Shown here: positions 1 to 30,841 of the stretch, one piece after another | Numbering within the stretch: position 1 is the stretch's first letter | How the letters are laid out: the number at the start of each line of letters is the position of its first letter | From: Tribonema minus | Taxonomy: Eukaryota > Sar > Xanthophyceae > Tribonematales > Tribonemataceae | Length of the DNA: 64,000 nucleotides | Reading direction: 5' to 3' | Assembly (NCBI GenBank): GCA_017506865.1 | Contig: JAFCMP010000198.1 | Span: 1-64,000 of the forward strand | The notes under the pieces: generated by a model | Told to the model about the DNA's origin: nothing | What the model saw: the letters and a program-made list of their open reading frames with translations, nothing else | Database searches by the model: none | Translations under genes and position numbers: made by a program

Positions 1-310
1 TTACATTGACGCTGGGGGGGAGAACTCGAACAGCAGCGGCACTGACAAGCGGGTTCAGCAAGTAGGATATACTGAATACTTCTCATTAATTTTCAAATAT
101 TTTTAATGAAGTAGTCATATGTTCAGACAGCGAACTAGCTCTCAGACCAGCATGCTCATGGAGTGCATAGGGCACCTGAGAGTGTGGGCTCGTTCACCAA
201 TCTGTGATTCAAGCCGTAGGCAAAAATTGAGGCGCTGGTGGAAACAGTACCTCTGCAAGGCAGGACCATTCATAAGGAAGGTGACCCACTGACGGTAGCA
301 CTGACGCAGG

Positions 311-1315
311 TTGAGAAGCGCAATGTGGCAGCTCTTTGGCACCGCTACCCAGAGGGGTTCTTGCAGGCGCGCAGCGCACTTAAGCGTATGCGCGAGGAAG
401 ATGTCTGGCTGGTTAACCAGAGATCCGAAGTCCGGGCAGATGAGGAGCCCCACACCGGTGAGATGTTTTGGTGTGTTGGAGCGTGATGAAAAACGCATTG
501 CCCGTGTAGGGGTGGTGGTCAAGCATGATGACAAAACGTTTGCGACGCGGCTGCAGCGTGACTATGCGCGCGGAGATGATGAGCCCGCGCAATGGGAAGT
601 TGAGTTGGTGGGGGGTATAGAGCCAAACTATGTGAGGTGGAGGCCGTCTGGGTATGAGTTGGCCATTCTACACCCAGTGAATCCGAAGGGTGCAGGTGTG
701 AATAGGGAAGGACGACCGGACCAAGCCGTGATTGTGCAGGTTGCGCCGGCCTGGTGCCAGCCGTTGGGCCGTTTCCCTAGAGCTCATGCCATCACTGACC
801 ACATTGTTGTACGGACACTGGTGAACCCTACAGCGATGCAGGTCGCGGCGCACACTCTGACTCCTTGCATTCTCCCACAGGGTACCCCTATGAGGGCCAA
901 AATAGGCAGGGCATGGCGCACATGTGTCATGGTGCAGGATTTTGTGGGCACTGACACTCATGTGCTTGACAGGAATGTGTTTGACCCCTTGTTGCTTGTG
1001 CGGGGCGATGACACGGGAGAAGACTTTTATTTGCCTGCGTCGTGCACCAGATTGCAAGTTGCTAGACCCTACTGGGTGCAGCCGTTGGCCCCTGCGGAGC
1101 CGCTGGCTGACGCTGCCAACTGGGCGCGCGTAGAGGGCCCATTGGCTGCTGACTGCCTTGATCCTGACAAGGGCCCTGTACTGACAGTGCCTCCCTCGGT
1201 GCCAATCGCAGGCCTTGAGTTCACTATGCCAAGAGATGCCATAACTGACCGCTGTGTAGACCGCACTCTTGCTCAGCTCGTACACCAAATGAGGGTAACC
1301 TCAATGACCCCATAG
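311..1315 (+). CDS. Upstream ORF of the Ty3/gypsy element, function unknown
   Basis: Open frame of about 334 codons upstream of the gag-like region and in the same orientation as the rest of the element. I recognise no domain. The body (from about residue 50) reads like a folded, Trp- and Pro-containing protein without low complexity. It is followed directly by the glutamine-rich tract and then the gag-like frame. It could be the N-terminal part of a long gag precursor or an extra accessory protein. The start codon is uncertain. Treated as part of a fossil element. Confidence 0.45.
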   Translation: MRSAMWQLFGTATQRGSCRRAAHLSVCARKMSGWLTRDPKSGQMRSPTPVRCFGVLERDEKRIARVGVVVKHDDKTFATRLQRDYARGDDEPAQWEVELVGGIEPNYVRWRPSGYELAILHPVNPKGAGVNREGRPDQAVIVQVAPAWCQPLGRFPRAHAITDHIVVRTLVNPTAMQVAAHTLTPCILPQGTPMRAKIGRAWRTCVMVQDFVGTDTHVLDRNVFDPLLLVRGDDTGEDFYLPASCTRLQVARPYWVQPLAPAEPLADAANWARVEGPLAADCLDPDKGPVLTVPPSVPIAGLEFTMPRDAITDRCVDRTLAQLVHQMRVTSMTP

Positions 1316-1365
1316 CTGTGAACGAGCTGCATACGTGGCGCGAGCAGGCTCACCAGTTGCAGCTG

Positions 1366-1700
1366 CAGCAACAGGTTTGCCGCTGCAGCAGCACCAGCAG
1401 CAGCCGCAGCAGCACCGCAGCAGCAGCAACAGCAGCAGCCGCAGCAGCAGCAGCAGCATCAGCAGCAGCCGCCGCCGCCGCAGCAGCAGCAGCAGGCTGA
1501 GCCTCAGGGTCAATGGCAGTTGTCAGAGCGGTGGCAACGACACCGGCAGCAGCAGACGGAGGACGCACAGCCGCCGCCGCAGCAGCAGCAGCAGCAGCAG
1601 CTGGCGCCATCGCCGCCGCCGCTGCAGCAGCTGCCAGTGGCGCCGTCGCCGCCGCAGCAGCAGCAGCAGCAACCCGCCGCCGCCGCCTCCTCCGCCGCAG
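1366..1700 (+). repeat. CAG/CCG trinucleotide-rich tract in the Ty3 element
   Basis: Two blocks dominated by CAG and CCG triplets, about 1366-1500 and 1560-1700. Depending on frame they would encode polyglutamine with proline, poly-alanine or poly-serine. They lie between the upstream ORF and the gag-like ORF. Such tracts expand and contract easily, so frame across this stretch cannot be trusted. Confidence 0.85.
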
Positions 1701-1863
1701 CAGCTGACGGAGGATGACGACCCGCAAGTGATCACCAGGCAAGAGGCAGCCAGCAACGCACGGCTGCCTTGCGCGCGATGGCTCCTCGGGCGCTCAAAGG
1801 TGTGTCACATGAAACGCTCTATTTTTTGGATGACCCCCCGGAGGCAGGTTTAGAGTACCGAGG

Positions 1864-3060
1864 GTGGACAACAAGGCCATCAGCCATGAGGTCATTACGT
1901 GCATGATGCAGGAGTGGTTGGACTCGCTTGCAGCGCGTGTGTCGTTTGAAGGGGTGCAGTCGATCCCCGATCCCAACTCGGACCTGCGCACTTGTCCGTC
2001 ATATGTTGCTTTGATGCTGCAATACTGCTTGTCCGCCGAGCTGCGTAGGAGCATTAAGGCGTTCCTGCACGAACATAGGGGCGCTAATGGCGACCTGTCA
2101 GGCAGGCAAATCAGTGCGTTGCATGCTCACCTCGACCGCGAGTATAGTGAGTCAATGCAGCGTAGCAAGGCAGACACAAGGTTGGAGCAGCTGCGCCTGG
2201 AGCCGGGAGTGAGCATCCAGGTATTTTTATTGGACTTTGAGAAAGTGCTGCGATACACATTGCACGGATTGGAGTTGGGAGAGAAGGTGTTCAGAGACAG
2301 GTTTGTCAGAAGGCTCATTGACACTCTGGCAAGATCCAAAGATGTGAAGGCCCGAGTTGAAAAGTTCTTGGAGGCACTGGTAGAGTTCAGGGTGGTGCTC
2401 GAGCGCCAAGGGACGGATCAAGTGGACATGGCGTCGGTAAGGCTGAAACTGCAGCAGGCAGAGAGTGTAGTGGCTGCGACGAAGAGCATGTCAGTGCGCG
2501 CATACTTGGCGGCAGAGGTGAGTAAGAAGTCTGAGAAGCGGGGGGGCTCGACATATGCATTTAGTGGTGGCGGGTCAGAATCTGAGTCGGAAAACTCTGA
2601 GGGCGGCGCTTCTGGGGCTGACGTTCTTGCCACGCAGGGCGGCAGCGGCGCTGTGCCTAACACCCGGGCTACTGACACTAACGCTGAAACTCCGTGGAAT
2701 GCAGCGCTGGACAGGTTCAGCTCCCATCTTCAACAGCATGCCAGTGACATGAACCAGCGTTTTGACTCACTTATCCGCGCAATGAGTCAACGTCACGGTG
2801 CTCCTCTGCAAACCGCTCCTCACAGGCAGCTATACTACCCTGCTGGCAACCGCCAGGGCCCGCCCAATTACGGCAGGCAGGGCTGGGGCGCCGCGCCCAA
2901 CATCGGGGGCAACATCAACTCCAGGCCAAACGGGGGTTTGATCTCCAACACCGGGGGGGGGCTCGTGTCGCTAACAACTTCCCCCTTGATCCCTCCAGTC
3001 TCTCCCCTGAGTTGGTGCAGGCTGTGCTGGCAATTGTACACGGCGAGAGGCCAGCAGTAG
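1864..3060 (+). CDS. gag: Gag-like protein of the Ty3/gypsy element
   Basis: About 398 codons. The central part (roughly residues 60-230) is alpha-helical with a retrotransposon-gag-like pattern of Leu, Phe and Arg, followed by an acidic Ser/Glu patch and a Gly/Asn/Gln-rich C-terminus. I see no clear CCHC zinc knuckle. The frame overlaps the start of the pol frame by roughly 50 bases, which fits the programmed frameshifting that Ty3/gypsy elements commonly use. The assignment rests on position and general character more than on a diagnostic motif. Confidence 0.65.
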   Translation: MDNKAISHEVITCMMQEWLDSLAARVSFEGVQSIPDPNSDLRTCPSYVALMLQYCLSAELRRSIKAFLHEHRGANGDLSGRQISALHAHLDREYSESMQRSKADTRLEQLRLEPGVSIQVFLLDFEKVLRYTLHGLELGEKVFRDRFVRRLIDTLARSKDVKARVEKFLEALVEFRVVLERQGTDQVDMASVRLKLQQAESVVAATKSMSVRAYLAAEVSKKSEKRGGSTYAFSGGGSESESENSEGGASGADVLATQGGSGAVPNTRATDTNAETPWNAALDRFSSHLQQHASDMNQRFDSLIRAMSQRHGAPLQTAPHRQLYYPAGNRQGPPNYGRQGWGAAPNIGGNINSRPNGGLISNTGGGLVSLTTSPLIPPVSPLSWCRLCWQLYTARGQQ

Positions 3061-6000
3061 GCCCCACTGCGCCCACGTGGTCCACTGTGTTAGGCGTGGG
3101 GGCGGACAACGAGGCAGAGTACTTCTTCTCGGCGCGCACCTACTTCGCGTGGGATCCCTCGGCAGGCCCGGTGTGTCTGAGCTGCGACCCCGACAAGTTC
3201 GCTGAGTGCTGCTGCTTCGTGGCAGATGATGAGGTAGCAGAGGTGAGTAGTCTGGTCTGCGTGGCAGGTGCTGATGCTGGTGGCCAAATTGGCAGGATGG
3301 CCCCAGTGGTGCTCATGGTAGAGGCGCAGATTCACAATGTCATGCCTGCAGTGGTTTATCTGGATTCGTGCGCAGGCTGCGATGTGATGCAGTTCAGGGC
3401 ATACTGCCTTCTGTTGCGTAAGCTGAGAGACAGGGCAGAGACGGCGCAGCAGGCAGTGCGTTTGGAGCAATCCCAGCGCCAGCCCACATTTAAGGCGATT
3501 CGTGGGGTTGGCAGGCACCTGGTAGCAGTGATGTTTATGGTGACTGTGCAGGTGGAGATTGCGGGCGTCTCAGCTCAAGTTGACTTTCATGTGAGCAACC
3601 AAATCGACCCTCAGTTCCTGCTCAGCTACAGCACCATTGCGCGTATGCGGTTGGACATGCTCACGAGTCGCTCGCCTGCCATGGTACAGCATCCTGACTT
3701 CCCTAACAAAGCAGTCAAGTCGCTGACCCCTGATGAGGTAGCAGCCAAGCGTGACCAATGGCGTAGCGCGCGCAATGCTGGCAACCAACAGGGAGTACAG
3801 TCGGCCGAAGTTGCAGTTGACCTAGGCTCGGTGTTGAAGTTTGAGTATGGGTCGCTGCCCGCGGAGCTGTTGGAGGAGCGTGCGGAGAATGGTGAGCCTG
3901 GCCCGAAGTTTGTGTTGAGCAAGGGCACGCAGCGAATGCAACCACCTATTGACCTTGACAGTGTTGATGATGAGAGGGTAATCAGGGTGGATGATCTGCC
4001 GAAAGCGGGATGGGAGGTAGACGTGCAGCACAGACACTGGCACAACGGTGAGTTGAGTGAGGTAATGTCGGTCAGCTCAGAGTCGATTGACAGTGCCTCA
4101 GAGGACGGAGAGCCGGCTGACAGGTATGTGGAGGAGACAGACTGGACAAAGATGTCAGGTGAAGATTCAGCAGACGACAGTGACATGGAGCTCGATGCTG
4201 CGCGCACTCAGTCTTGTGATGAGACAGTTGAAGTTGAAGTTGACGTGGCGCTTGCTGAGCTTGATGCAGATAGGCGCTCAGGGTGCTACGACAAAAAGGG
4301 GGGGTCAACTTGGGCAGTGCAGGATTGCCACCCAGACAGGTGGGCAGCAATTTCACCAGTGGAGCGCGGTGAGTACCCAAACGTTGAGCACATGACCGTG
4401 TCAAGCCTCACAGTGGTAGACTTGGGGGCGGGCATTGGCAGCTCCGTGAAAGGTGCGATTATGGGAGGGGCGCAGGTAGCATTGGCAGTGGAGATAGATG
4501 ATACATATGCTGCCATCTTTCGCGCATCTCACCCCAACGTGCCCTTGCTGGTGGCAGACTACACATCTAATAAGGTGTGGGACAGGATTATGGAGATAGA
4601 CCCTGACCTAGTAACTGCCAGCACCCGTTGTGAAGGCGCCAGCAGACAGCGCTTCAAGCCAGCTGGGGAGATCAGAGTTGATGCAGAAGCAAATCAGGTA
4701 ACCCCAAAGTTGGTGGACAAAGCCATTCAGCGAGGCGTGAAATGCCTGATGATTGAGAATGTGCCAGAGATCAGCGAGACAATCAGCGGGCAGTTGGCGA
4801 TTGAGCATGCGCACCAGGCAGGATACCATGTGTTGTCATTTGAGCTCTCAGGTGCAGACCTAGGGTTCCCTAACCTGCGCAATCGCGTGTTCTTTCTCAT
4901 CACCAGGGGAGACCAAACTGTTGTAGACACCTTGCGTACAGTGGCAGGCAGGATTGAGGAGGCCAAGTATGGCGGTCACAAGCAGGAGAGAGTGCAGATT
5001 AACCCTGGTGAAATGTGGGGCGTGTCTAACCCTGTGTATGTGCTGCCGCCGCGCAATGCCACAGCTCGCTGGACACATGACGCCAAGCGCAGTGCTCCCA
5101 CTCTCATTTCACGCCACTTCCATGTGTTTCGCCAGCCTGCAGACGACCACATGCGTCGAGGTGACATTGAGTTCTCGCTCTCACAGCGGTATGTCCCCTC
5201 GCAGGCTGACGTGATGCGAGCCAACGGCTTGTGGTGGATCAAGGTGCCGCCGGGGGTCAGTCAGACTGCCCTGGCAAAAGGTTGTGGCCAGATCGTGCTG
5301 GCACCAGTCATGTCATTTATTGTGCGCATCTTGCGCACTGAGCCTGTGTTGTTTGACACGCAGCATCGCCTGCACCCAGCGGCGTCGCGTCTCATTGAGG
5401 ATGGCATTTTTGTGCAGACACTTGGCCCGTATGCACTGCCTGAGGATCACCGTCAGGGCGGCACTCTCGTGGGGCCTGTACTCATTGCCTCCTCTCTGCC
5501 TAGCACGCCATTTTTGCGCAAGCTACGGCACATGCAGGGCTCGGTCAAGAGCGCTGGCAACAACAACCGCGAGCCAGGACCACAGCCGACCTCTACCTCA
5601 ACTTCAACTTCAAGCACCAGCACCACGGCAAGAAGCACCGACGCGGACAGCGGTGAAGACGCAAGCAACGGCGACGGCGACGCCAGCGGTGAAGACGCTG
5701 AAGGCCATCGCAGCGGCGGGGCGCGCACGCCAGGTAAGATGACAATGTTGGAAGCATACAACCAAGTGATGGATGAGCTTGATGAGCGCTTGGGCAAGAA
5801 TCACATGTCAGAAGACCCAGGCGTAGCCGCTACCGCCAATGCTAAATTGCCAGGGTGGGACGATATTCTGCTAGTTGCTGAGCAAGGCGCATCGGCGCAC
5901 AAGCAAGCTACAGTACGCGTTGCCAAACAATACCCAGTAACTGAACCTACAACAGCAGGAGTTGCAGTGTTGGTGACGTGGACAGGGTGGGTGCCGCCGG

Positions 6001-9000
6001 GCAACTATGTGCTAGAAGGGGTAGTAGACCCAAAGGGGCACTGGGCAGTGCGGCGCCAGCGAGTGTTGGTGGAAGAAGGTAATCAAACCAGCACTATAAA
6101 CATCACTATTGTGAAGCGTACCGGTAAGCTGAAACCGGGTGTTAAAGTGGGGCATCTACACTTGTTGGATGAGCGGATGTGGAAGAAGGAGGTACACCAA
6201 CATGAAGTAGGCATTACACGCAGTTTGCTGAAGCTGTCCGCGGAGTCGTTGAGACAGACTGATACACCTGCGCGTGACAGTAAATTGGCAGCGGTCAAAG
6301 CCAGGATAGCGAGTGTTGAACGCAATGATCGTTTGGCCACAGCCTGCTTCATGGTAGCGATGGGGTGTGTCACGCCTGCGGAAGCACGTGCACAGTCTGA
6401 AGGGGCCATAAATGGAACAGCTGCGGAGAATTTGTTTGCGCAGAGTAGTGCGCATGGTTGGGGGCGCCAAGTTGAAGTTGAGGGGATGAGCACTGCTGAT
6501 GACAGAACAATCCCTGTAGCAGGCACGGTACCGGGGGTACGACCGCCTGCAGAGCCCCCACCAGCGAAAACTTCTTGCACTGCAGTCTCAGAAACTCACG
6601 CTGGAACTAAACAGGAAGCAAAGATTGATGTAGAATCGCAACCTGGTGTTGACACTGGCGCAGGTACAGAACCTGTCAATGAGTGTACGGACGAAGAAGC
6701 AGTGCAGCGAGCGCGGGAGTTGGAGTGGTTTGCCGCGTTCAAAATAGGGGAATTGGATCACCTTACAAACAAGCAGAAAGAAATTTTAACGGATTTGCTG
6801 CGTAGCATGGCTAGGAAAGGTATCTTCTCATTTGATGGCAGGCCCGGAAAGACGTCGTTGGTCCGTCACCATATTGATGTAGGGGATGCTAGACCAGTAC
6901 GTGCAAGATTGCGCAAGTACAGCTTGAAGGAGCTTGAAGTGCTGTGGAAGGAGATAGATTTTTTGATTAAGAAAGGTGTGATTGAACCGTCAAATTCGCC
7001 TTGGAACTCCCCTTTGATGATAATACCCAAGCCGGATGGGGGACTGCGAGTAGTGCAAGACTTGAGGGCGGTTAATCAAGCGGTCAAAGAAAAGGGCAGC
7101 GGCCAGGATGGTTTTCCGTTGCCACGCATTGATGAGGTGCATTCAGCGTTGAGTGGCTCTGAGTGGTTCAGCTCTATGGACGCGGTAGCTGGATTCTGGC
7201 ATGTTGAACTTGATAGAGAATCCAGGCCGCTAACAGCATTTCAGACCAAATGGGGGTGCTACCAATGGAAGGTTGGACCCATGGGGCTCATGAATATGCC
7301 ATCTACTTTTCAGCGTCTGATGCAGTTGGCCATGGGACATGATGCGTTGTGGGTGTATGCATTAGTGTATGTGGACGATATTTTGGTTTTCAGCAAGACT
7401 TTCGAGGAACACATGAAGCATTTGAAGGTAGTGCTGAGCCGCTTGCTCTCAGTTGGTATCAAGCTGAAGCCATCAAAGTGTCATTTCGCAATGAAAGAGG
7501 TCAAGTTTCTGGGCCACATAGTGGATGCGCGAGGTAAACGTGTGGACCCATCAAAAGTGGCAGCCATCGACAAAATACCACTTCCCACTGACCTCCATGA
7601 TGTGCGTTCCTTTTTGTGTATGGCAGCATATTATAGGCAGTACATTTCCAATTTTTCTACAATCACGGAGCCCCTGGTAAACCTCACGCGCAAAGGTGTG
7701 CCGTTTGAGCTTTCTGATGATTGTGTAGCAACTTGGCAGGTTTTGAAGGAGGCGCTAAAAACGTCCCCTGTGCTAGCTCATCCAGACTTGAAAGGGATCC
7801 TTAATGGTACAGTCAAGCTGGTATTGCAAACAGATGCTTCAGACTATGGAGTTGGAGCAGTGCTGACGCAAATTTGTCCTGTCAATGGTGAGCATCCCAT
7901 AGGATATTATAGTAGGACTTTAAAAACTGCCGAGCGCAACTACGGCACCTATGATAGGGAAGCGCTAGCGGCCGTGGAAGGGGTTCACTACTTCAGGCAG
8001 TTTTTGCATAATGGCAACACGTTCACTCTACAAACTGATCACTCTGCGCTAGCGCATCTCATGGGTGGCTCAGAACCGCGAACTAAGCGGCAAGAACGTT
8101 ACATATCAGAACTGCAAGAATACAACATGGATATAGTACATAGGCCTGGTAAAGAGAATGGTAATGCAGATGCTCTCTCTCGTATCAGGGACGGTGCTTA
8201 TGTCATGATGTCTGCAGGTGTTGACCTCTCTGTGAATGCAGCGCAGACCTCGCTGCATGGGGGCGTGCAGAGGCCCACACCTGACACCAAAGAAAGAATT
8301 GCAGTGCCTGTTCTTGCTTTTAGCGACGTTGAGAAGACAGGTGGAGTGCAGTGCTCGAGAGTGCAGGTCAGCATGACAGCGGTGGCGCAATTGTGGCCAG
8401 AGGGCGAAGATGATCACCTAGGAGAACCAACGCTGGACGATGGAGACGAGTTTGACAGTGACGAAGAAACAGGTGGTTCATTAAAGTTTAAGAAGCGGCA
8501 GCGTCCAGTTTTTCAGTCGAGTGACTTAGCGGATTCTTTGGGCAGCGATCCAGTGCTTGGCAAGGTTGTGAAATACCTCCAAGCAAAAGCCAGTAGTAGG
8601 GCTCATGGTCTAACCCCAGTTGAAGTTGAAGAGGCGCGTGCTTTTGAACGTGCAGGTTATTATATGCGCGAAGCTAAGATGTATATTGCTGCAGGGGGAA
8701 GGTCACACAGGGCAGGGACAGACTTGTTGGTTATACCAAAGGCTCTGCGCGAGCGCGTGTTGCTTGAGTGTCATGACGGTGCAATCGGGGGAGGCCACAG
8801 TGGTTTTGCTCGCGCCTATGACAAGGTTAGGCGCAGGTACTTTTGGCCAGGCATGTATGCGGATGTTTTTCATTGGGTGCTTTCTTGCATGGCGTGTCAG
8901 AAGCGCAAGTCAAGGCGTGATGCACGAATTAGGGTACATGGCTTTGGAGATATTGATTTGCAACATGCATTCCAGTTGGTAGGGTTTGATATAGTAGGTC

Positions 9001-10295
9001 CTCTGCCAACATCAGACGATGGCAACCGTTTTATTTTGGTTTTCACGGACTACCTCACTAGGTGGCCGGAGGCCTTTGCAATCCCTGATAAGTCAGCCCA
9101 GACGGTAGCGCGCAGCATCGTTAGTGAAATAGTACCTAGGCATGGGTGCCCGCAGATGTTCCTGTGTGATAATGCGAAAGAATTCAGGGGAGCGTTGATG
9201 AAAGAGCTGACCAGATTGCTGGGCGTTGAGCAACGTTTCACTTCACCCTACCACCCCGCATGCAACGGTCTCACTGAGCGCACCAATGGCTCACTTGTGA
9301 ACATTTTGTCCATGCTTGTAGAAGACAATCAACGCAACTGGGATCGTGTGCTCCCGCAGGCCCTCTTCAATCACCGCGCTTGCACTAACACCACCTATGG
9401 CATGTCACCTTTCCGCATGTTGTACGGTCGCGAGCCGTTGTTGCCGTTTGAGGCTATGCTAGGAGATATACGTGTGTCTAAGTTGTCCAACAGGTGGCGT
9501 ACTGCCGCGGAGCACCTGGAGGCTTCCCATGACGCTATACGGGAGGGCTACCGCCTGGTCCAATCATCGCTTCAAGAGCAGGAGGAGAGGCTGCGCGAAG
9601 AAGCAGCAAAGGAGCAGGGCTATGCGCGGCGCTTCCAACCCGGTGATACAGTACTAGTCCATTAACCGCCTGTGCGCAAAGGTCTAAGCCGTAAGTTGAA
9701 GGCAGATCGGTGGCTGGGCCCTTTTGTAGTAGAGAGGCGTATACCGGGCTTAGACACTTATGTCTTGCGTGCAACGCATCAGGGTCAGGTGATGTTGAAG
9801 TACATCCACTGCAGTAGACTGAAGCTTGTGAAAGAGAGGCATGCAGTGGTGGAAACACCCCCTTTTACAAACGTTCCACAGGAAAAGCGAGTTACCTCCA
9901 CCCGTGACGCAGCTGACAAGCCAGTAACGCCAGCAGCCTCAACGCTGCCACGCACTCCATGCCGCTATGCCAAGGGTGATATTGTGAAGGTGTCTCTGAA
10001 AGCTTGGAATGAGACATCAACTGACAGTTGCGATGGCTATGTGGTGCATGTACAGGCCAATGGTATGGTGGAGTTTATTTGCCCAGTTGACGCTCCCGAA
10101 CCAGATGAGCTGATTGCGCAATTGCAGGATTTTGCCGGACGCTATCGAGGAAGGGCAGCAAGGGGCGACAAGCATTTCACCAATCTCATCTACACGCTCC
10201 ACCATACATCATCTTTCCTTACAGAGCGTGTAGGCACATTCTGGCACCCTCCTGCCGCTGCAGCGCGAGTGCTCACCTTCATCGACGGGAGCTGA
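3012..10295 (+). CDS. pol: Pol polyprotein region: protease, C5-methyltransferase, RT, RNase H, integrase
   Basis: A very long pol region. Near residues 115-120 an LDSCAG sequence is the probable retropepsin active site. Residues about 460-775 form a cytosine methyltransferase, entered separately. Then come an acidic and Ser/Thr-rich stretch and a beta-rich linker of the kind that precedes RT in gypsy elements. RT shows FQRLMQ and the catalytic YVDD near residue 1453. RNase H shows LQTDASDYGVGAVL and ends in a NADALSR box. Integrase shows a zinc-binding segment with CMACQ and the core with FTDYLTRWPEA and FTSPYHPACNGLTERTNGSL. The distal part carries WLGPFVV (GPF/Y-type) plus about 120 residues of unknown tail. 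The whole is much longer than a standard gypsy pol because of the inserted methyltransferase. About one break lies in this region. It is read as a fossil copy. Confidence 0.9.
4400..5340 (+). other. Cytosine-C5 DNA methyltransferase domain inside Ty3/gypsy pol
   Basis: The family methylates cytosine C5 in DNA using S-adenosylmethionine. Visible motifs in order: motif I (SAM binding) VVDLGAGIGSS near residue 468; a motif II-like acidic residue in AVEIDD; the motif IV loop with a Cys at about residue 540; motif VI MIENV with Glu at about 582; motif VIII DLGFPNLRNRVFFL with the two Arg at about 623 and 625; then a variable target-recognition-like stretch; and a motif X-like segment near residues 757-775. 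The order and spacing are those of bacterial Dcm and eukaryotic DNMT catalytic domains. It lies in frame between protease and RT. From memory, DNMT domains captured by LTR retrotransposons have been published in dinoflagellates and a charophyte alga; this would be a further case in a different lineage. Confidence 0.88.
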
Positions 10296-11924
10296 TAACG
10301 AACTTGACAACTCACCTCACTGTTATTTTGAGCACAGGATGACGCGCTCTCAACTCAAAACTTTCAATTGTACGGCGTGGGTCCCACATTGGTGCTTATC
10401 CCACAGCCCGTAAGGGCGCCTTTCCTGAATTGCATGCCTCAGATGTTGGATGAGTCAGGGCACAAGAACTTGAACTTCAAGATTCAAGGCGCGAGGCGGG
10501 CGGGCCAAGTTCGTTCAAGTTTCAAGAAATGCGGCAATGGCCGTTGCGGACGATGGGCATACCCGGGAGGAGGGCAAACATACTGGGAGTACCGCGTGCC
10601 CGCTGCGGCAGCTGGTGAGGCCATCAGGCCCTGGACGTGCGTATAGGCGCTAGCACAGTACACGCGAAGTTGAAGTGTCGCGTTGCCTGCGGACGTAATC
10701 AGGCCATCGCGGTATAGTAGAATTTCCGCAGTGTTCCCCTATTGATTTTGCTGCTGATCACATCAATGACGTAGCAGTAACGATGTGGATGTGTAGCAGG
10801 CCACCTGGGTTCAAGTCCAGTCCTGTGAGGCGATACCTCTGCGTGGTAGGTGGGTCACATGTGGACATAGATGAACTGCCAGCCCCATACATAGACCAAA
10901 ATGATTCAAGGTCGTCATAGTGCCACCCACTTGAAGTTCAAAAAATTCCCTACCTACTCCAAACTACTCCAACCAAAATTACTGCAGCAGCGAGCAACCG
11001 TGATTGGGTTCATGGGCGCCTCCCGTCTGCCTGTCATCATCTCCAGTCAGCCAAAAAAAAAACATAAGGCAGGCTCAGGTGACAGTCCGTCGTGCCTGAA
11101 ATTGTTCTCATGGCCAGCTGTGCCGTGGGTCCTCGGAATGGCATTACGGTGGTATTAGATATATATATGCTCCCGTGTGATGCGGCAGTGGCACCTTAAT
11201 GTGTGACCCCGTCCGCCTGGTAGTGGCGCTCAGGTGCTCCCATTTTCGGGGGTGATGTTGTGAGGAGGCGCTACCAGATCGGTCGCGAGTGCCCTGGAGA
11301 GGGACTGCTCGTTACGTTGATCACACACCCCTTTAGAAAATAATATCAGTCCCCGAGCAGACAGTGGCGTGGCACGCCTGACTTCCTGGTTTCTAACAGC
11401 GTCTTAAAGAGGGGCCAGCTAACCTGAAATGTGCTGATTGTTGCCTGTTTATCATGTGATAACCTCAACTCCAGGAACTTTATGCCTGTGAAATCTGCTA
11501 AGAAGCTGTTGCGAAATTATGTGACTTGCATGCACGGCGCACAGTGTTGTTATTTGACTGGCCGCTTTTCTTTGATCCATGCGCCTGGGAGTCGATGGAT
11601 GGGGGCGTATGTCGTAAAGCGGCCCCCTTATCTGGCTAGTTCAACCTAAAAAGAGGGTTTCCCCTTGGGTCGTACTTCAACTGTGTGCGGGAACGCTGTA
11701 GGGCTTAGTAATCAGACACGACTTTAACCTTCAACATGGCACAGCTTCTTCTGCTTCTACCTGTTTAGCCACGCTTGCATATTAGGGTGATATTGCACTT
11801 GGGGAGGGCGCTCCGGTCCACCTCCCACGGCACCAGGCAGTGGGCATTTCCGGCTGTTTCAAGTCAAGGTTGAGACTGGGTCTCACACACTTTCACCCTC
11901 TGTGGTTGGCACACCACCACATAT
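10296..11924. other. Non-coding stretch after pol, probably holding the 3' LTR
   Basis: No convincing gene. By position it should hold the 3' untranslated part and 3' LTR of the Ty3 element, but the 5' LTR is outside the window, so LTR ends cannot be set by comparison. A TATA-like run (about 11157-11168) could be the LTR promoter. A purine-rich stretch near 10565-10590 and an A-run near 11047 are possible polypurine tracts. None of these is firm. Confidence 0.35.
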
Positions 11925-23973: not shown

Positions 23974-26900
23974 CTACGGAGGAGCCGGCGGTTCGGCGCT
24001 GGCCGGCGAGGGCCGCGGCACTTGCAACAGTGCGATGCGGCGGTAAGCGCTGACGTCGCCATCAGGGGCAATGACTGCGTTCCAGTTGTCGATCACGACA
24101 CGTGTGAGCGCGCGCTGTAGCGCGAGGGAGGTGCGGCGGCGCCAGAAGGCAACGCGCTGCGCGAGATTGTAGCTGCCCTGCGAGCTCTGCTCGGCGAGTG
24201 CGTGTAGCAGCGCTTGGGTGTCGCGTGACATAGCGCCGAAGTGGTCAAAGGCTGCGGAAAATAGGGTGTGTGTAGTGGGGTCCAGGGCCCCTGAGACTAC
24301 GTATGTGTCTATCTTTTCCTGCGAAGCCGATTCAAGCACGCGCTGCACATCGCGCGCGCCCCCCTGAGCCTGACGGAGGCGGGAGGGGCATGAGCTGTCA
24401 CGTATGGTGACGTCTATGCAACAAGCTACTTCAAAGCCGCCGCGCAGTTTAGTGCACCGGCCTGCTGCTACCGCGTCGGCGCTCGGCTGCACTTTAGGGA
24501 CTGGAAGGCAGACCTGGTTGCTGCCAAAGACGATGTCCATGAACTTGTTGAACCCGTGGCGCGCCGCGTAGCGGCGGAAGGGGGCAAGGGTGTCCCGGTC
24601 GAGACCGCGGAGGTGGGCCACCTGCTTGAGCAGCTGAAAGAGCGCGTCTGCGAGCAAGTTGTGTCGCGTGACGTTAAGCCCTTGTGTGCAGCGGCGCAGG
24701 TGGGCACCCGAGTCCACTGGTCTATGGCACTTGGGGCACCGCGCCGCAGCGGGGGCGGGGCGCTCCACGCCCAGGTGGCGCCGCAGCGTCTCGCGGAATT
24801 CCGGCGGGGACATGGTCTCCGCTGGGTCAGTGCTCGGCAATTGCGCCAAGAAACCCATGGCCCCCTTAGAGGCGCCGCTGCGCCACGCCGCGACTGCTTC
24901 CAACGCATTTGCTGCTTCAAGCCGACGCAGCTGCGTGGCGGCGAGCGCTGCGTCTAGCACCCGTGATAGCGCCGCTTGACGCCGCGGCAGCACGGCGGCC
25001 GGCGGGGCCTGGGCAGAGCCTGGCTCGCGCGCCACCGCTGGCGCAGCAGCGCGGCGCGCGCCGGCGCGAGTCCGCATGCCCGGCCCCGCAGCTCCGCCTG
25101 CCCGTTGCAGCAGATCGCGCAGCGCCCGCCATGCGCCGTCGTCCTGGCGCCAGTCCTGGTACCAGACCGTGGGCAGGAGCAGTGCGAGGGCCGCTGCAGC
25201 CTCATCGCTGCCGCTGCGCAGCTGCTGCAGGCAGGTAGCTATCTGGGTGAAGGTGAAGCCATAGCGGGCATGCTCTAGGACGCGGCTGCGTGCCGCGACT
25301 GGAAATGCCGCCAGTGCCGGCCCCATGCACTCGAGGGAACGTGCAGCAAATGCGGCACATGCACGGGGCGCCGCGCCCAGCACGCCAAAGCCACCACTCC
25401 CCAGCCGCAGATGCACGCGTACCTGCTGATGTGCTGGTAGCGTCACTGGGGCCTCGCCACCCCAGTCGGCGCCGCGTACCCATGCCACTGCCGCCGCCCA
25501 CAGAGAGGGCGGCGCCGCCGCCGCCGAAACCGCCGGCGGGCCGCGGCAATCGTCACCCGCCGCCGGCGCGCGCTGGTGGGCCGGCGGCGTAAGACCCGCC
25601 GATGGCTCCTGCGCCAGCGCGGCCACGGCCGCTAGCGTGATGGCGTCGAAGCGCCATAGCTCCTCGTGCGTGAGGGATGGCGCTGTATTGCGCGAGACAT
25701 GCCCTGCGCGGGCGGGGACGGCAAGACGCAGAATGGAGAAGGCAGCCTGCACATCCTCCATCTGCACAAGCTCCGCAACCAGGCGGTCGGTGCCGGGGGC
25801 ACGAAGGGTCGCCGCCACTTGCGCGCGCACGAAGCCCTCGGTGCCGACCGGCACCCCCATCAGCGTGATGCCGTCGTCACATACTGGTACGGGGACATTG
25901 GCGGCGGCAAAGACGGCGGCGGCGCGCTCGCGGGCGCCGCCTGAGGCCGGCACCACCGCCGCGCATTTCGTGACGTTGACCTGAATGTTGAGCTCGCTCA
26001 GCGCCTGTTGTATGAAGCAGAACGCGCGGCCAACGTGGTCGAGCACCGGCGCGTCACAGCTGGGCGTCATGATGGTGAGGTCATCGAGGTAGCCCGGAAG
26101 CGCCAGTTGCGGGAACTTGGCGCGGGCAGCCACCATGGTGCCGCGCAGTGCCAGCGCGAACAGCAGCGGCCCCAATGGGTCGCCCTGCTGCACGCCCTGT
26201 TGGGAGAGGATGATGGCGGCGTCGGCGTGCCCATCTAGGCCAAATTGTAGCCAAGGGGCCCGGCCGGGGCCGTAGATGTGCTCGACGTAGCCGTACAGGC
26301 CAGGCAGATGCTCGGCCACCGCGGTGAGGACTGCCGAGCGCGACAGCGCGTTGAAGGCATTACTGCCGTCAATGGCAAGGAGCACGCCGCCGCACTCATG
26401 CGTGAGCTGCGCCATGAGCGCCACTCTCTCTGCGCCCCCCCGCGCGCCGACCCCAAACTGGCCAATTGGTTCCAGCAGCGCGGAGACGCGGTCCCGGGTG
26501 TCCGTGCAGAAGGTGCGGGCGAACAGGCGGCGGATGGTGTCGCCGCACGCGATGGGGCGCGCCTTCTCGCCCACAGCGCTGAGGCGCGCGGCCGCGTGAA
26601 GGCGCCAAAAGGGGGCGGGCAGCGCGGCGGGGGTGGAGTACACCGCGGTACCCAGCCACGCCAGCAGCTCAAGGAGCCAGTCAACCGTGCGCCCCGACGT
26701 GTGCGCCGTGTGCCGGACGCACTGCTGGAGGTGGGAGTTGCGCAGCCCAGAGGGACCGGCGGCCGAGCCAGGGTTGGCGGCGAGGATGGCCTCGCGTAGC
26801 CCGTCCGCCGTGAATGAAGCGCAGTTGAGTGGTGCCGGCGCCGCCAGCGCCGCCGCCGCCACCAAGCTGCGCGCCCGCGATGCCGCGGCATCCAGCTTCG

Positions 26901-28140
26901 CAGACGCATCGCCAGCTGGGTGTTTAGCCTGCAGTTTATGCAAGGTAGCAGAGTCGCGGGGGGCAGATGTGTCAGCACCCTCCGCCAGCAGCCGCGCGGC
27001 GCGCCCGACGCCGCCCGGCTGCCGCGCCGTCGCCGCCGCGCGTTCCCGCACTGCCGCCGCCGCCTCCGTCATAGACCTAGCGCGGCGCGTGCACGCACGG
27101 GCGGCGCCGCGGCGGCAGAAGGCCAGCGCTGTGCGCGTGAGCAGGTCCAGGTCGCCTGCCACGAAGGCCGCAAAACGGTGCGCCCGCGGCAGGGAGCCGT
27201 CGGGTACAAGCAGCAGGCACGGCAGCAGATGCAGCAGCTTGCACCATGCACCGGCTGTGGCGGACGCCTGTGCCGCTGCCTCAACCCCGTGTGCCTGCGC
27301 TACCGCCGTCTGCGCTTCCCGGAGGCCCGCCAGCGTGGCCGTCAAGGCGGCTGTGAAGTCCGAGCGGTGCTCCAGGCGAATGCGGCGGCCGACCACCAGT
27401 TGCTGCTGCAGAACATAGTCAAAGGAGAGGTCGTCAAGCGCTGCGCGCGCGGGCGAGAGCGGCGCCAGCGTCCAGAGCGGAAGCGCGCTGCGCCATGTTG
27501 GCCCTGCCGCAGCCACAGCGGCAGCTGCGCGGGCGCCGGGGCCGCGCGCGCCGCCGCTGGCTGTAGAGAGGGGGAGGATGGGGGGCAGAGGCGCGACGCG
27601 GGGCCCGTGTGGCCGCTGCGTTGCGGCCGCCCCCCGGGACTTGTACAGGTGGTCGCGCTGGTGCAATTTCGTGCGCACGCACCCTGGCTCGCCGCACGAG
27701 GCGCATGCGCAGAGTAGCAGCTCGGGTTCCACGGCGTAGTAGGTGCCCGCGCCGGCTCGGTGGAGAGTCAAACACTCATCGTCGACCGCCTGCATACGCG
27801 CGAGAAAGTCGGCAGGCACATTCGGATGCTCGCGGCGCTGGTGATCCGCCAGCGTCGTGGCGATGCGGCGCGCCAGCGCCAGCGACGCCGACGTCTGCGC
27901 CGTGAGCGTGTTCGCCTCCCCGTTCCGGCGGAGGCGCGGTTTGGGCACTGGCACCCGAAAGAGGCAGCCAGTGTCATATAAAGGGCAGCGCGGATAGATG
28001 GCAGCTGTTGCAGGCTGAGCGGGCGCCTGCACTGCCTCAGGCTGCGCAGGGTCTATGCCCGCCGCGGCAGCCGCTGCTGCAGCAGCAGCTGCCGCAATGG
28101 CCGCCGGTGCGGCTCCCCCTGAAGTAGAGTCAGACATCAT
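23974..28140 (-). CDS. LINE B ORF2: reverse transcriptase with zinc fingers and restriction-like endonuclease
   Basis: 1388 codons. Copies element RNA into DNA at a nicked target. N-terminal zinc-finger-like parts: CPLYDTGC with a later HQRREH (residues about 53-110) and CASCGEPGC with HQRDH (about 148-168). RT motifs: ARPIACGDTIRRL; motif A AIDGSNAFNALS (about 590); motif B GVQQGDPLGPLLFALAL (about 647); motif C GYLDDL (about 685). Near residue 1134 is CPKCHRPVDSGAHLRRC, the CCHC cluster that precedes the restriction-like endonuclease in R2-type LINEs. CIDVTIRDS near 1245 with a following Lys resembles its PD-(D/E)XK core. No AP-endonuclease domain is seen. The frame is uninterrupted, so the copy may be recent or active. 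Confidence 0.92.
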   Translation of the reverse strand: MMSDSTSGGAAPAAIAAAAAAAAAAAAGIDPAQPEAVQAPAQPATAAIYPRCPLYDTGCLFRVPVPKPRLRRNGEANTLTAQTSASLALARRIATTLADHQRREHPNVPADFLARMQAVDDECLTLHRAGAGTYYAVEPELLLCACASCGEPGCVRTKLHQRDHLYKSRGAAATQRPHGPRVAPLPPILPLSTASGGARGPGARAAAAVAAAGPTWRSALPLWTLAPLSPARAALDDLSFDYVLQQQLVVGRRIRLEHRSDFTAALTATLAGLREAQTAVAQAHGVEAAAQASATAGAWCKLLHLLPCLLLVPDGSLPRAHRFAAFVAGDLDLLTRTALAFCRRGAARACTRRARSMTEAAAAVRERAAATARQPGGVGRAARLLAEGADTSAPRDSATLHKLQAKHPAGDASAKLDAAASRARSLVAAAALAAPAPLNCASFTADGLREAILAANPGSAAGPSGLRNSHLQQCVRHTAHTSGRTVDWLLELLAWLGTAVYSTPAALPAPFWRLHAAARLSAVGEKARPIACGDTIRRLFARTFCTDTRDRVSALLEPIGQFGVGARGGAERVALMAQLTHECGGVLLAIDGSNAFNALSRSAVLTAVAEHLPGLYGYVEHIYGPGRAPWLQFGLDGHADAAIILSQQGVQQGDPLGPLLFALALRGTMVAARAKFPQLALPGYLDDLTIMTPSCDAPVLDHVGRAFCFIQQALSELNIQVNVTKCAAVVPASGGARERAAAVFAAANVPVPVCDDGITLMGVPVGTEGFVRAQVAATLRAPGTDRLVAELVQMEDVQAAFSILRLAVPARAGHVSRNTAPSLTHEELWRFDAITLAAVAALAQEPSAGLTPPAHQRAPAAGDDCRGPPAVSAAAAPPSLWAAAVAWVRGADWGGEAPVTLPAHQQVRVHLRLGSGGFGVLGAAPRACAAFAARSLECMGPALAAFPVAARSRVLEHARYGFTFTQIATCLQQLRSGSDEAAAALALLLPTVWYQDWRQDDGAWRALRDLLQRAGGAAGPGMRTRAGARRAAAPAVAREPGSAQAPPAAVLPRRQAALSRVLDAALAATQLRRLEAANALEAVAAWRSGASKGAMGFLAQLPSTDPAETMSPPEFRETLRRHLGVERPAPAAARCPKCHRPVDSGAHLRRCTQGLNVTRHNLLADALFQLLKQVAHLRGLDRDTLAPFRRYAARHGFNKFMDIVFGSNQVCLPVPKVQPSADAVAAGRCTKLRGGFEVACCIDVTIRDSSCPSRLRQAQGGARDVQRVLESASQEKIDTYVVSGALDPTTHTLFSAAFDHFGAMSRDTQALLHALAEQSSQGSYNLAQRVAFWRRRTSLALQRALTRVVIDNWNAVIAPDGDVSAYRRIALLQVPRPSPASAEPPAPP

Positions 28141-28173
28141 TACGGTGGATGAGGGGAGCGCCGCACCGGCGGC

Positions 28174-30810
28174 TTACAGGCCCGAGGCGCCGCCGCCTCC
28201 CTCCGATGCCGGCGGCTGGGCCGTCGAGGTGGAGAGGAAGCGGTCGGCGGCGGACTGACCTTGGGGCAGCCCGCGCGCGGGGCGTGCAGCGGGGGGTTCC
28301 GCCGCCGAGCCCGGCGTGCGCTCAGCAGCCGTGCGCTTGCGGCTGGCGCGGGGTGTGCCACTGTCGGACATAAGCGCGCTGCTGTCACTGGCAGGCATGG
28401 GGGGCTGCCTACTGCGCGAGGGGGAGGCGCTGCAGTCGCTGCCGTGCCGAGCCGCTGGCGACGATGCGCGCCGACACCGCGAGCGCCCGCGTGAGCAAGA
28501 GCGCGGCGGCTGCCGCGGCGCCGCCGCTGCCTCCAGTGCCACCGCGGGGTCCGCTGCCGCGCTTGCGGCCGCTGCCGCTGCCGCGCTGGCAGCGCCTACA
28601 GCAGGCGGCGGCGCGCCCGCCGCCGCCGCGCCTGCCGCCGCCGCGCCCGCCGCCGTTGCCCCGTCCGCCGCCACCGCCGCCGCAGCGCCAGCCGCTGCAG
28701 AGCTAGCCTCAAGGTCTCCCGCCACGGGCGTGGTGGCCACCGCGCCGGCGGCGTCCGCCGCCGGCACCGCCACGCTCGCAGCGCGCGCCGCTTCCGCTGT
28801 CAGCTGCGCCTCGAGTCGAGCGGTCGCCGCAGCGTTGCGCACCTGCTCTCCTTCGCGCAGGCTCCGTTGCTGCGCCGCCAGCCGCTCCGCACGAACTTGC
28901 TCTGCCAGAGACCGGTCGCGATCGGCCTCAGCAGCCCGCTTTCCCGCCTCGGAGGCTGCCAGCAGCTTTGTCAGTGCCTTGACCTGCTGCTGCAGCCCCT
29001 TCCGCGCGGTCCTCCCCTCCAGGATGCCCCCCTGCAGCTGCTGAATGCGCTGCTCCTGGCCCAGCTGCGCAGGGTCCGCGTCGGCCGCCGGCGGCGGCGG
29101 CGAGGCGCCCGGCGACGCGCTCGCCAGCGCGGGCGTCGAGGCGGCGGCAGCGTCCGTCGCGGCGGCGCCGGTCGCCGCCGGCGCTGGGGGGTGCGAGGCG
29201 GCGGCGCCGGTGGGCGCACGCTGCGTCGCGGCGGCTGCCGCCGCGGCGGCTGCAGCCGTGGCTACCGCAGGGGCACCGGCGGCTGTGCCAGTGGCGGCGG
29301 CTGGCGTGGTGCAGGCCGCGGGGAGCGTGGTGTGCGCGCAGCGCGTTGCCCGGCACTGCTGACCCGGGCGCGTGAAGTGCCGTCGCAAGCAGGACGGGCA
29401 CGCTGTCAGATTGTCAGGGCCCAGCAGCCGCAGCGCTACTTCCGTGCCGTCCACCGCGCATAGGACCGAGTGCGCGAGTCGCCGCGCAACGCCGCGGACC
29501 ACTGTTAGCTCCCAAACACCCGCGGCGCCTGGCGATGCCGCCGACGCCGGCGCCGCGGATGAGGCCGCACCGTTAATGCCTACGCCGCAGGTCTTCAGAG
29601 CGCTGGCCAGCAGCAGAAAGGCGGCGGAAGTGCCGCCGCCGCCCGCCCGCAAGCGCACCGGCGCGATGGGCATGCCAGGAGCTGCGAGTGCGGGCGCAAG
29701 CAGCATTGCAAGCTGCGCTGCAGACCACGCCGCCGGCGCGCCGCGCACGGTGACCGTGACCGGGGCGCTCATGTCACCAGCGCGGGTGATGCGCAGGCGG
29801 AAGCCGCTGAAGCTGAAGTCAGCGGAGTCGCCGACCGTTCCGAGCGCCGCGTCAACGAGCGCGGCCGGCGCCCGCAAGCATAGCGTGCGGAAGTCATCGC
29901 GAGGCGACAGAGGCCCCAGCGTCTCTGCACCCTTGAATAGGGACGCAAGTGAGGCAGCGTCTCCAGCGCCGGCCCTCGCCGCGTCGTGCATGTGCGTGAG
30001 CGCCGCCGCTAGCAGCTGCTGGCGCCCCCGCGTGAGTCGGGCGCGGCGCTGTGCAGCCGCCGCAGGGGTGCTGCGCTCGCGCTCGTGAGGCTGACGGGCC
30101 GGCGCGAGCTCTGCTAACAGTGCGCGGACGCTGGCCGGCAAGGCAGCCAAGTGCTCCTGGGTGTAGCAGGTGACTGGATCCACCGTAAACGAGACTAGGT
30201 CTGTGCCGGCTGCCGCCGCCGGCGGCACAAATGGCTGTCCCTCCGCTGTCGGACGGCCCTGCACGCGCGCCGCCATCGCCATGAGGCGGCCCGCAGCGGC
30301 TCCACCCTGGCGCCCCACCGCCGCGACAGCGGGGGGCACGAAGAAGTACTGCTCCTGTTCCGCGGCGTGGAACATCTCGCTCGCCTGTTGGTATAGCTGC
30401 CCTGGAGTGAGGGCGGATGGGGCTGGGGTTGGCGTGTAGCTGCCTCGGGGAGTGAAGTAGGCTCCATCGTGGCCGTGCAGCAGCCGTGCCTCCTCCCGAA
30501 GCAGGTTGCTCTTCGCTGTAAGCGACGGGGGTGTTGTCGCAGTTTTGGCGGCTTTGGCCGCCCACGAGGCAGCAGCAGCAGGAGGGGTGGCCGCGCGACC
30601 ATTTGGGCCAGCTGGCGTGTCGCCAGTCGCCGCTGGCAGCACCACCTCCATCGCTTCGGATGGCATGAAACGACTTGAAGTTGAAATGGGGCGGGCCCTG
30701 CCCCGCCCCTGGGACACGGTGGCGGCTGCCCCTCGTGGAGGGTGCCGAGCGTTGGCTGAACAGCAGGCACACAGGGTGGGAGTCACCAACGTGGCGCCAG
30801 CAAAATCCAC
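28174..30810 (-). CDS. LINE B ORF1 protein
   Basis: About 878 codons; a Met near 30664 is an alternative start. Likely role: the nucleic-acid-binding partner of the LINE reverse transcriptase. The N-terminal half is Ala/Pro/Gly-rich. Around residues 330-460 there is a compact stretch that could be an RNA-binding fold. Near residue 470 a Cys/His cluster (CPSCLRRHFTRPGQQC then C and H) looks like a zinc-binding segment. Residues about 583-670 are a strong coiled coil rich in Gln, Glu, Ala and Leu, as expected for an oligomerising ORF1 protein. The C-terminus is low-complexity Ala and then Ser/Arg-rich. The stop is 33 bases before the ORF2 start, so reinitiation could express ORF2. The functional assignment is by position and architecture, not a recognised family. 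Confidence 0.72.
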   Translation of the reverse strand: MDFAGATLVTPTLCACCSANARHPPRGAAATVSQGRGRARPISTSSRFMPSEAMEVVLPAATGDTPAGPNGRAATPPAAAASWAAKAAKTATTPPSLTAKSNLLREEARLLHGHDGAYFTPRGSYTPTPAPSALTPGQLYQQASEMFHAAEQEQYFFVPPAVAAVGRQGGAAAGRLMAMAARVQGRPTAEGQPFVPPAAAAGTDLVSFTVDPVTCYTQEHLAALPASVRALLAELAPARQPHERERSTPAAAAQRRARLTRGRQQLLAAALTHMHDAARAGAGDAASLASLFKGAETLGPLSPRDDFRTLCLRAPAALVDAALGTVGDSADFSFSGFRLRITRAGDMSAPVTVTVRGAPAAWSAAQLAMLLAPALAAPGMPIAPVRLRAGGGGTSAAFLLLASALKTCGVGINGAASSAAPASAASPGAAGVWELTVVRGVARRLAHSVLCAVDGTEVALRLLGPDNLTACPSCLRRHFTRPGQQCRATRCAHTTLPAACTTPAAATGTAAGAPAVATAAAAAAAAAATQRAPTGAAASHPPAPAATGAAATDAAAASTPALASASPGASPPPPAADADPAQLGQEQRIQQLQGGILEGRTARKGLQQQVKALTKLLAASEAGKRAAEADRDRSLAEQVRAERLAAQQRSLREGEQVRNAAATARLEAQLTAEAARAASVAVPAADAAGAVATTPVAGDLEASSAAAGAAAAVAADGATAAGAAAAGAAAAGAPPPAVGAASAAAAAAASAAADPAVALEAAAAPRQPPRSCSRGRSRCRRASSPAARHGSDCSASPSRSRQPPMPASDSSALMSDSGTPRASRKRTAAERTPGSAAEPPAARPARGLPQGQSAADRFLSTSTAQPPASEGGGGASGL

Positions 30811-30841
30811 CCAGAAACGTTGAAGTAAAATGTGTGAAGTT

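Follow-up and report, generated by a model that had tools for sequence, protein, structure and literature searches.

Why does the polyprotein of an algal retrotransposon contain a cytosine methyltransferase domain, and does that domain still methylate? The question is raised by a 64,000-nucleotide stretch of Tribonema minus contig JAFCMP010000198.1 (the window), of which positions 1–11921 are most of one Ty3/gypsy LTR retrotransposon. The element is truncated at the contig start and, as the contig begins within it, the 5′ LTR is absent from the window. Its order of protease, reverse transcriptase (RT), RNase H and integrase is that of Ty3/gypsy elements, with Pfam matches from RT onward and the protease recognized by an LDSCAGC stretch (at about aa 200 of pol) in a region that itself gave no Pfam match. 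There is a 3′ LTR in the window, and a full-length 12.8 kb copy on contig C554 (442729–455565) has both LTRs, with 2 differences in 312, and, by eye, a 4-bp target-site duplication, GACG. In the window copy the upstream ORF, gag and pol are in three different frames (Table 1), the second being termed gag-like from its position and relatives only. Its pol stops at 9663–9665, where the copy on C190 reads through, and it looks defective. The copy on C54 has a 3361-aa open frame that spans the methyltransferase (DNMT) domain, a length consistent with fusion of the upstream ORF to gag-pol. A CAG-rich, polyQ-like stretch is present in the window at about 1387–1675, 3′ of the upstream ORF.

Table 1. 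Features of the retrotransposon in the window (families A, B and C are described in the text)
Feature	Coordinates	Strand	Evidence or remark
Upstream ORF, 336 aa	305..1315	+	No Pfam match; tblastn relatives in family B (32%) and family C (37%)
Gag-like ORF, 408 aa	1834..3060	+	No Pfam match above cut-off; tblastn family C 53%, family B 37%
pol ORF, 2299 aa	2766..9665	+	Stop precedes integrase C-terminal part
Retropepsin-like protease region, LDSCAGC	3300..3680 (borders approximate)	+	Conserved in A, B and C; by eye
C5-cytosine DNA methyltransferase-fold domain	4407..5363	+	Pfam, PHROG, genome copies, alignment
Motif I, DLGAGIGSS	4419..4445	+	Alignment
Motif IV, STRCE	4620..4634	+	Cys kept, Pro-Cys not; from R onward lost in family C
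Motif VI, ENV	4755..4763	+	Alignment
Motif VIII, NLRNR	4872..4886	+	Both arginines kept; alignment
Motif X-like, LAKGCGQIVLAP	5271..5306	+	Alignment only; weak
Reverse transcriptase	7023..7523	+	RVT_1 1.4e-33 (pol aa 1420–1586)
RNase H	7713..8123	+	RT_RNaseH 2e-28, RT_RNaseH_2 4e-26 (pol aa 1650–1786)
Integrase: H2C2 zinc finger and rve core	8733..9257	+	Pfam (Integrase_H2C2 aa 1990–2050, rve aa 2070–2164)
Integrase C-terminal part	9666..10295	+	By position; after the stop, same frame; continuous with pol in copy C190
3′ LTR, 312 bp, TG...CA	11610..11921	+	Matches both LTRs of copy C554

At the level of sequence, the presence of a C5-cytosine methyltransferase-fold domain is confirmed. The Pfam DNA_methylase profile (PF00145) matches pol aa 549–722 with E 3e-9 and 37.2 bits, above the curated cut-off of 22, and PHROG 116, ‘DNA methyltransferase’, matches at 1.2e-16; a match to NCBIfam dcm (4e-4) is below its cut-off. 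The original prediction placed the domain in frame between protease and RT of a gypsy pol, and there it is, with LDSCAGC upstream and RVT_1 downstream. (The protease side of this holds because the LDSCAGC stretch is conserved in the related families A, B and C.) The Pfam match ends at profile position 169 of 324; a target recognition region would lie beyond, where the motif X-like stretch comes from alignment alone. The motifs had been listed as I, IV, VI, VIII and X in correct order, and of these motif I, the Cys of motif IV, ENV and the two motif VIII arginines stand, with motif X weak. The G of motif I, the E and N of motif VI and both motif VIII arginines are the same in all 12 domains aligned, though family C reads ENA for ENV. 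Motif IV is altered: the window reads STRCE instead of PCQ, so that the Cys has lost its preceding Pro as well as its following Gln. A search of PDB with the window domain gave four matches, three methyltransferases and one unrelated protein.

The domain is far from unique to this locus. Nineteen genome places, that of the window included, match its full length at 98–100% with no internal stop (family A). The window domain is 57% identical to that of family B, 64–65% to that of family C over residues 107–340 and about 25% to that of family D; the corresponding RT identities, from the fuller rows, are 98–100% within A, 91–92% for B, about 93% for C and about 60% for D. When the rows of four genome searches were pooled, at least 339 distinct places had some DNMT match, fragments included, a lower bound because scoring covered the best candidates only. 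An assembly chimera or single-copy insertion is ruled out by this copy number and by metagenome relatives: P0012 and P0029, both partial, are 73–75% identical, so the family exists outside this genome too, and P0012 has the same upstream context. (A charophyte or peridinin-dinoflagellate host was rejected on red-type rbcL fragments, rubisco being of other types in those groups, and because the NCBI ‘methyltransferase’ of Tribonema minus, P0010, is identical to the translation of the place on C517.) Searched as a protein, the whole 2299-aa frame found nothing among proteins of similar full length, the only ones admitted, unlike the profile search, which did find relatives. P0005 found no relative when scanned against viral contigs.

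Among 88 RT rows related to that of the window (102 minus fourteen rows at 38%), 70 have a DNMT row within 6 kb upstream. Three of the other 18 were examined; none has further pol sequence in the 3.5 kb upstream, and they are read as 5′ truncations. No precise DNMT-less version of A–C was seen among these three of the 18 candidates.

Where the domain sits in the polyprotein differs between families. Flanks were read for ten elements (for all others, long open frames and RT rows nearby served to infer the placement), and among them the domain is at three positions: protease-DNMT-RT, DNMT-protease-RT and RNase H-DNMT-integrase. The first is that of families A, B and C, with the protease identified by LDSCAGC. 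The domain is upstream of RT in family D and also in E and F, by Pfam in E and by a motif read by eye in F, the protease of both being read by eye. In family G the copy on C516 has DNMT, then a Pfam gag-asp_proteas match (8e-5, below cut-off), then RVT_1; that on C4 has the order DNMT-protease-RT with the protease by eye, and on C204 DNMT precedes RT. Family H (C224) has RVT_1, RNase H, DNA_methylase, H2C2 and rve in that order. The DNMT tree supports each of the groups A–D, E–F and G, and the RT tree recovers the same groups. A weak branch (69/52) of the DNMT tree has all retrotransposon rows on the same side. Constraining A–D together with E–F is borderline (p-AU 0.054), and a ten-row DNMT tree puts D beside A–C and E–F, without strong support. 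An independent capture, one of the two origins first envisaged for this domain, fits with the different host lineage and with the lack of any chain named DNMT3 in either set of PDB matches, the 53 that profile A1 gave and the four of the window domain. The three positions may stem from three captures or from reshuffling of a single one.

It is the catalytic centre that sets the window’s lineage apart. Motif IV is PPC or APC in families D, E, F and G, SNC in H, and STRC in A, B and P0012. The Cys and the following Glu are present in 17 of 17 family A copies compared and the Arg in 16 of them; family B reads STRCE in 4 of 4 copies, and the partial metagenome relative P0012 also has STRCE, with Cys and ENV kept. 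Family C, alone among the aligned domains, lacks the Cys. Its residues 83–106, motif IV included, are cleanly deleted in 29 of 29 copies for which both halves were listed (L043, L044 and L047 read ..DLVTASTTPQLV.. across the deletion), and long open frames persist around the deletion in many copies. The Pro that precedes the Cys has been called invariant (PMC2965745). DRM3, which is without Pro-Cys, is described in the same source as catalytically mutated, yet required for normal non-CG methylation. By sequence, the combination of a presumably kept fold and a lost catalytic Pro-Cys is complete in C, and in A and B it holds for the Pro only.

From the domain, its place, its copy number, the motif changes and the relative rates, all of them observed, we infer a loss of activity and a possible retained role. 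On this reading, to which we give slightly better than an even chance, the cytosine-methyltransferase domain that the window’s polyprotein carries between protease and RT would have been inherited vertically, and related domains would have followed two courses. In families D, E, F and G, with PPC or APC, the likeliest function of the domain is methylation of element cDNA or target DNA, by analogy with other retrotransposon DNMTs, and would take place during replication or integration; PMC5890265 proposes methylation of cDNA in replication for the elements it describes. In the lineage of A, B and C the catalytic centre would have degenerated to STRCE, or been deleted in C, with constraint relaxed. 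There the domain has most likely ceased to methylate and would persist as a folded part of Pol, possibly binding SAM or nucleic acid, comparable in principle to the catalytically mutated DRM3 or to DNMT3L. Against loss of activity, A and B retain the Cys, the ENV Glu and the two arginines of motif VIII, so some activity, and with it self-methylation, is possible for these two families.

The original suggestion was of an enzyme with which the element puts CpG methylation on its own DNA and so becomes less harmful or better tolerated; in a wider form of the model the element would also be protected. This is now unlikely for the window’s family. The retained residues just mentioned speak for it, Cys and ENV being kept in partial P0012 also, as does the CpG methylation reported for SymbioDIRS DNMTs when in yeast (PMC5890265). 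So do the footprints in two old copies of family A, where CpG C-to-T changes (48/741) exceed other C-to-T changes (65/3086) by a ratio of 3.1; direction in all these counts was assumed from one copy, and numbers are small. Younger A copies (L028, L031, L032, L033) have few changes, 0.0026 at CpG vs 0.0014. However, Pro-Cys is lost, the sister family C is without motif IV and the domain is far less constrained than RT. Moreover, two copies of the Cys-less family C have 6/186 CpG changes vs 2/828 others, which suggests that a self-encoded enzyme is not needed for the footprint. Three copies of family G gave a weak signal (7/280 vs 12/1132, p 0.08). Nor does CpG observed/expected, with base composition handled by the ratio alone, follow motif integrity: it is 0.67 for C, 0.73 for A, 0.78 for D, 0.79–0.84 for G, 0.81 for B, 0.85 for E, 0.95 for F and 1.11 for H. 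CpG methylation could also be supplied by the host, through the DNMT5 and HELLS with which T. minus is credited; the same source lists a CDCA7-like protein for it and names it as an exception to having DNMT1 (PMC10538959). Self-methylation is more plausible in the PPC-bearing families D, E, F and G of the same genome.

Rates of evolution bear on whether the domain of A–C has any role at all. The DNMT/RT distance ratio is 5.3–5.9 for A–C and 6.3–6.7 for A–B (by two sets of identities). It is 2.7 for A–D, and 1.5, 1.4, 1.4 and 2.4 in four comparisons made within G, between families that have kept PPC. (The DNMT and RT pair used is carried by C81, C193, C190 and C517; one place on C112 has its RT elsewhere.) The NG86 dN/dS values for DNMT in comparisons among A, B and C are 0.34/1.71, 0.23/1.47 and 0.26/1.61, about 0.16–0.2, and for RT in A–C 0.045/1.62, about 0.03, all of these ratios being rough because dS is near saturation. 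As almost all regions compared among A, B and C are close to saturated at synonymous sites, the fast and slow regions are not due to recombination. At codon position 2 the A–B identity of DNMT, 0.77, is close to that of the adjacent linkers, 0.73 and 0.76. The domain is thus kept, but loosely, and constraint of this kind falls short of proving a retained role.

Such figures speak for a captured domain that has no role in A–C and is tolerated within Pol while it decays, an account we regard as rather improbable, somewhat more so than that of an active enzyme. It accommodates evolution at the pace of linkers, the deletion of motif IV in C and the neutral-like recent polymorphism: the 17 young family A copies have 9 nonsynonymous and 5 synonymous variable codons, no significant difference from neutral (p 0.55) and no signal of recent selection on DNMT. 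What it does not readily accommodate is that about 300 residues stay in frame, 58–68% identical in A, B and C, despite near-saturated synonymous sites, that motif I, ENV or ENA and the motif VIII arginines persist, and that the few candidates checked included no precise DNMT-less version. The Cys-less lineage is not faster than the others. In a three-point comparison the DNMT branch of C is 0.147, against 0.283 for A and 0.277 for B; one linker is also slow in the C lineage (0.168 vs 0.34 and 0.483). The lack of acceleration fits a role independent of catalysis, or recent loss. That the domain targets RNA (genomic RNA or the tRNA primer) rather than DNA is very improbable, for while DNMT2/TRDMT1 are its best solved relatives by sequence (E 7e-5 and 9e-5), the match spans the shared N-terminal half only, and in the alignments the TRC of the window stands opposite PPC in DNMT2.

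The preferred reading, of a kept domain that no longer methylates, has partial precedents. The kind of element is already known: as the original prediction stated, DNMT capture has been described in other lineages, by dinoflagellate LINE and DIRS elements and a charophyte Gypsy (PMC5890265). Tribonema minus, a xanthophyte, is outside both host lineages of that paper. Its Klebsormidium nitens element, KnitGypsy-Dnmt3, likewise has a DNMT within the Pol frame of a Gypsy LTR element, in several intronless copies. However, that host is a charophyte and the domain is of the Dnmt3 family, with key residues conserved and Ka/Ks <0.2, whereas T. minus is a stramenopile, and its element has a degenerate motif IV and no PDB match named DNMT3. 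SymbioLINE-Dnmt and SymbioDIRS-Dnmt3 resemble the T. minus elements in reaching hundreds in one algal genome, in involving more than one element type and in having congruent DNMT and RT trees; they differ in being LINE and DIRS rather than LTR-gypsy, and in that their DNMT and RT are similarly constrained, whereas in A–C of T. minus DNMT is far faster than RT (PMC5890265). DRM3 and DNMT3L share with A–C an apparent fold without Pro-Cys (entirely so in C, in A and B for the Pro only) that is retained over time, but they are host genes with a demonstrated helper role and not part of a retrotransposon polyprotein (PMC2965745). Accessory chromatin domains are known in Gypsy elements of brown algae, with a Tudor-Gypsy homologue in Tribonema minus itself; these are readers, not methyltransferases, and the available text of PMC12477816 makes no mention of a DNMT-Gypsy. 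Among the matches listed in the open-licence literature (subscription papers and preprints being outside its scope), no paper deals with T. minus retrotransposon DNMTs.

As far as seen, what is new is the host lineage with its numbers, the three positions within gypsy and a lineage whose catalytic motif has degenerated or been deleted. DNMT capture by retrotransposons is hereby documented in a stramenopile alga and for LTR-gypsy, at hundreds of places as in Symbiodinium. A broader proposal, tentative and short of probable, is that a gypsy radiation took in DNMTs at three or more places in the polyprotein, and that the window’s lineage turned one into a non-methylating counterpart of DNMT3L or DRM3. 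Binding of SAM or DNA is conceivable for such a protein, as is a steering or blunting effect on host methylation, or joint action with active DNMTs that other elements contribute in the same nucleus. One genome has families with intact, altered and deleted catalytic centres in comparable settings. Since PPC, STRC and Cys-less families coexist in one organism, the benefit of a DNMT to a retrotransposon becomes testable, by comparing them for methylation, copy number and transposition.

Other DNMT sequences came to light in the searches. Three frames of 367–390 aa, L002 (C223:702740), L003 (C181:39962) and L001 (C223:937874), have the motif IV GFPCVGLS and are possibly stand-alone DNMT genes unlike those of the retrotransposons; two of them are near-identical though on different contigs. 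The metagenome proteins P0003–P0009, P0013 and P0015, most of about 420 aa and with a SPPCTDFSSAG-like motif IV, have the look of free-standing DNMTs with kinship to those of the retrotransposons. A G-type place (G000:C311:3916-4845) is within an open frame of 6208 aa, about twice the usual length.

The window also contains LINE-like sequences. One, considered as a methylation control, is a frame at 54011–58702 on the minus strand with an RVT_1 match just below the Pfam cut-off. It was uninformative in that capacity, as a 1.5-kb part has 100% identity across the 40 genome copies that were scored (of 588 candidates), which implies a very recent expansion. The other, at 23974–30849 and also on the minus strand, is a pair of long frames side by side, with RVT_1 in the first, in a GC-rich region (69–76%) where CpG observed/expected is >1.
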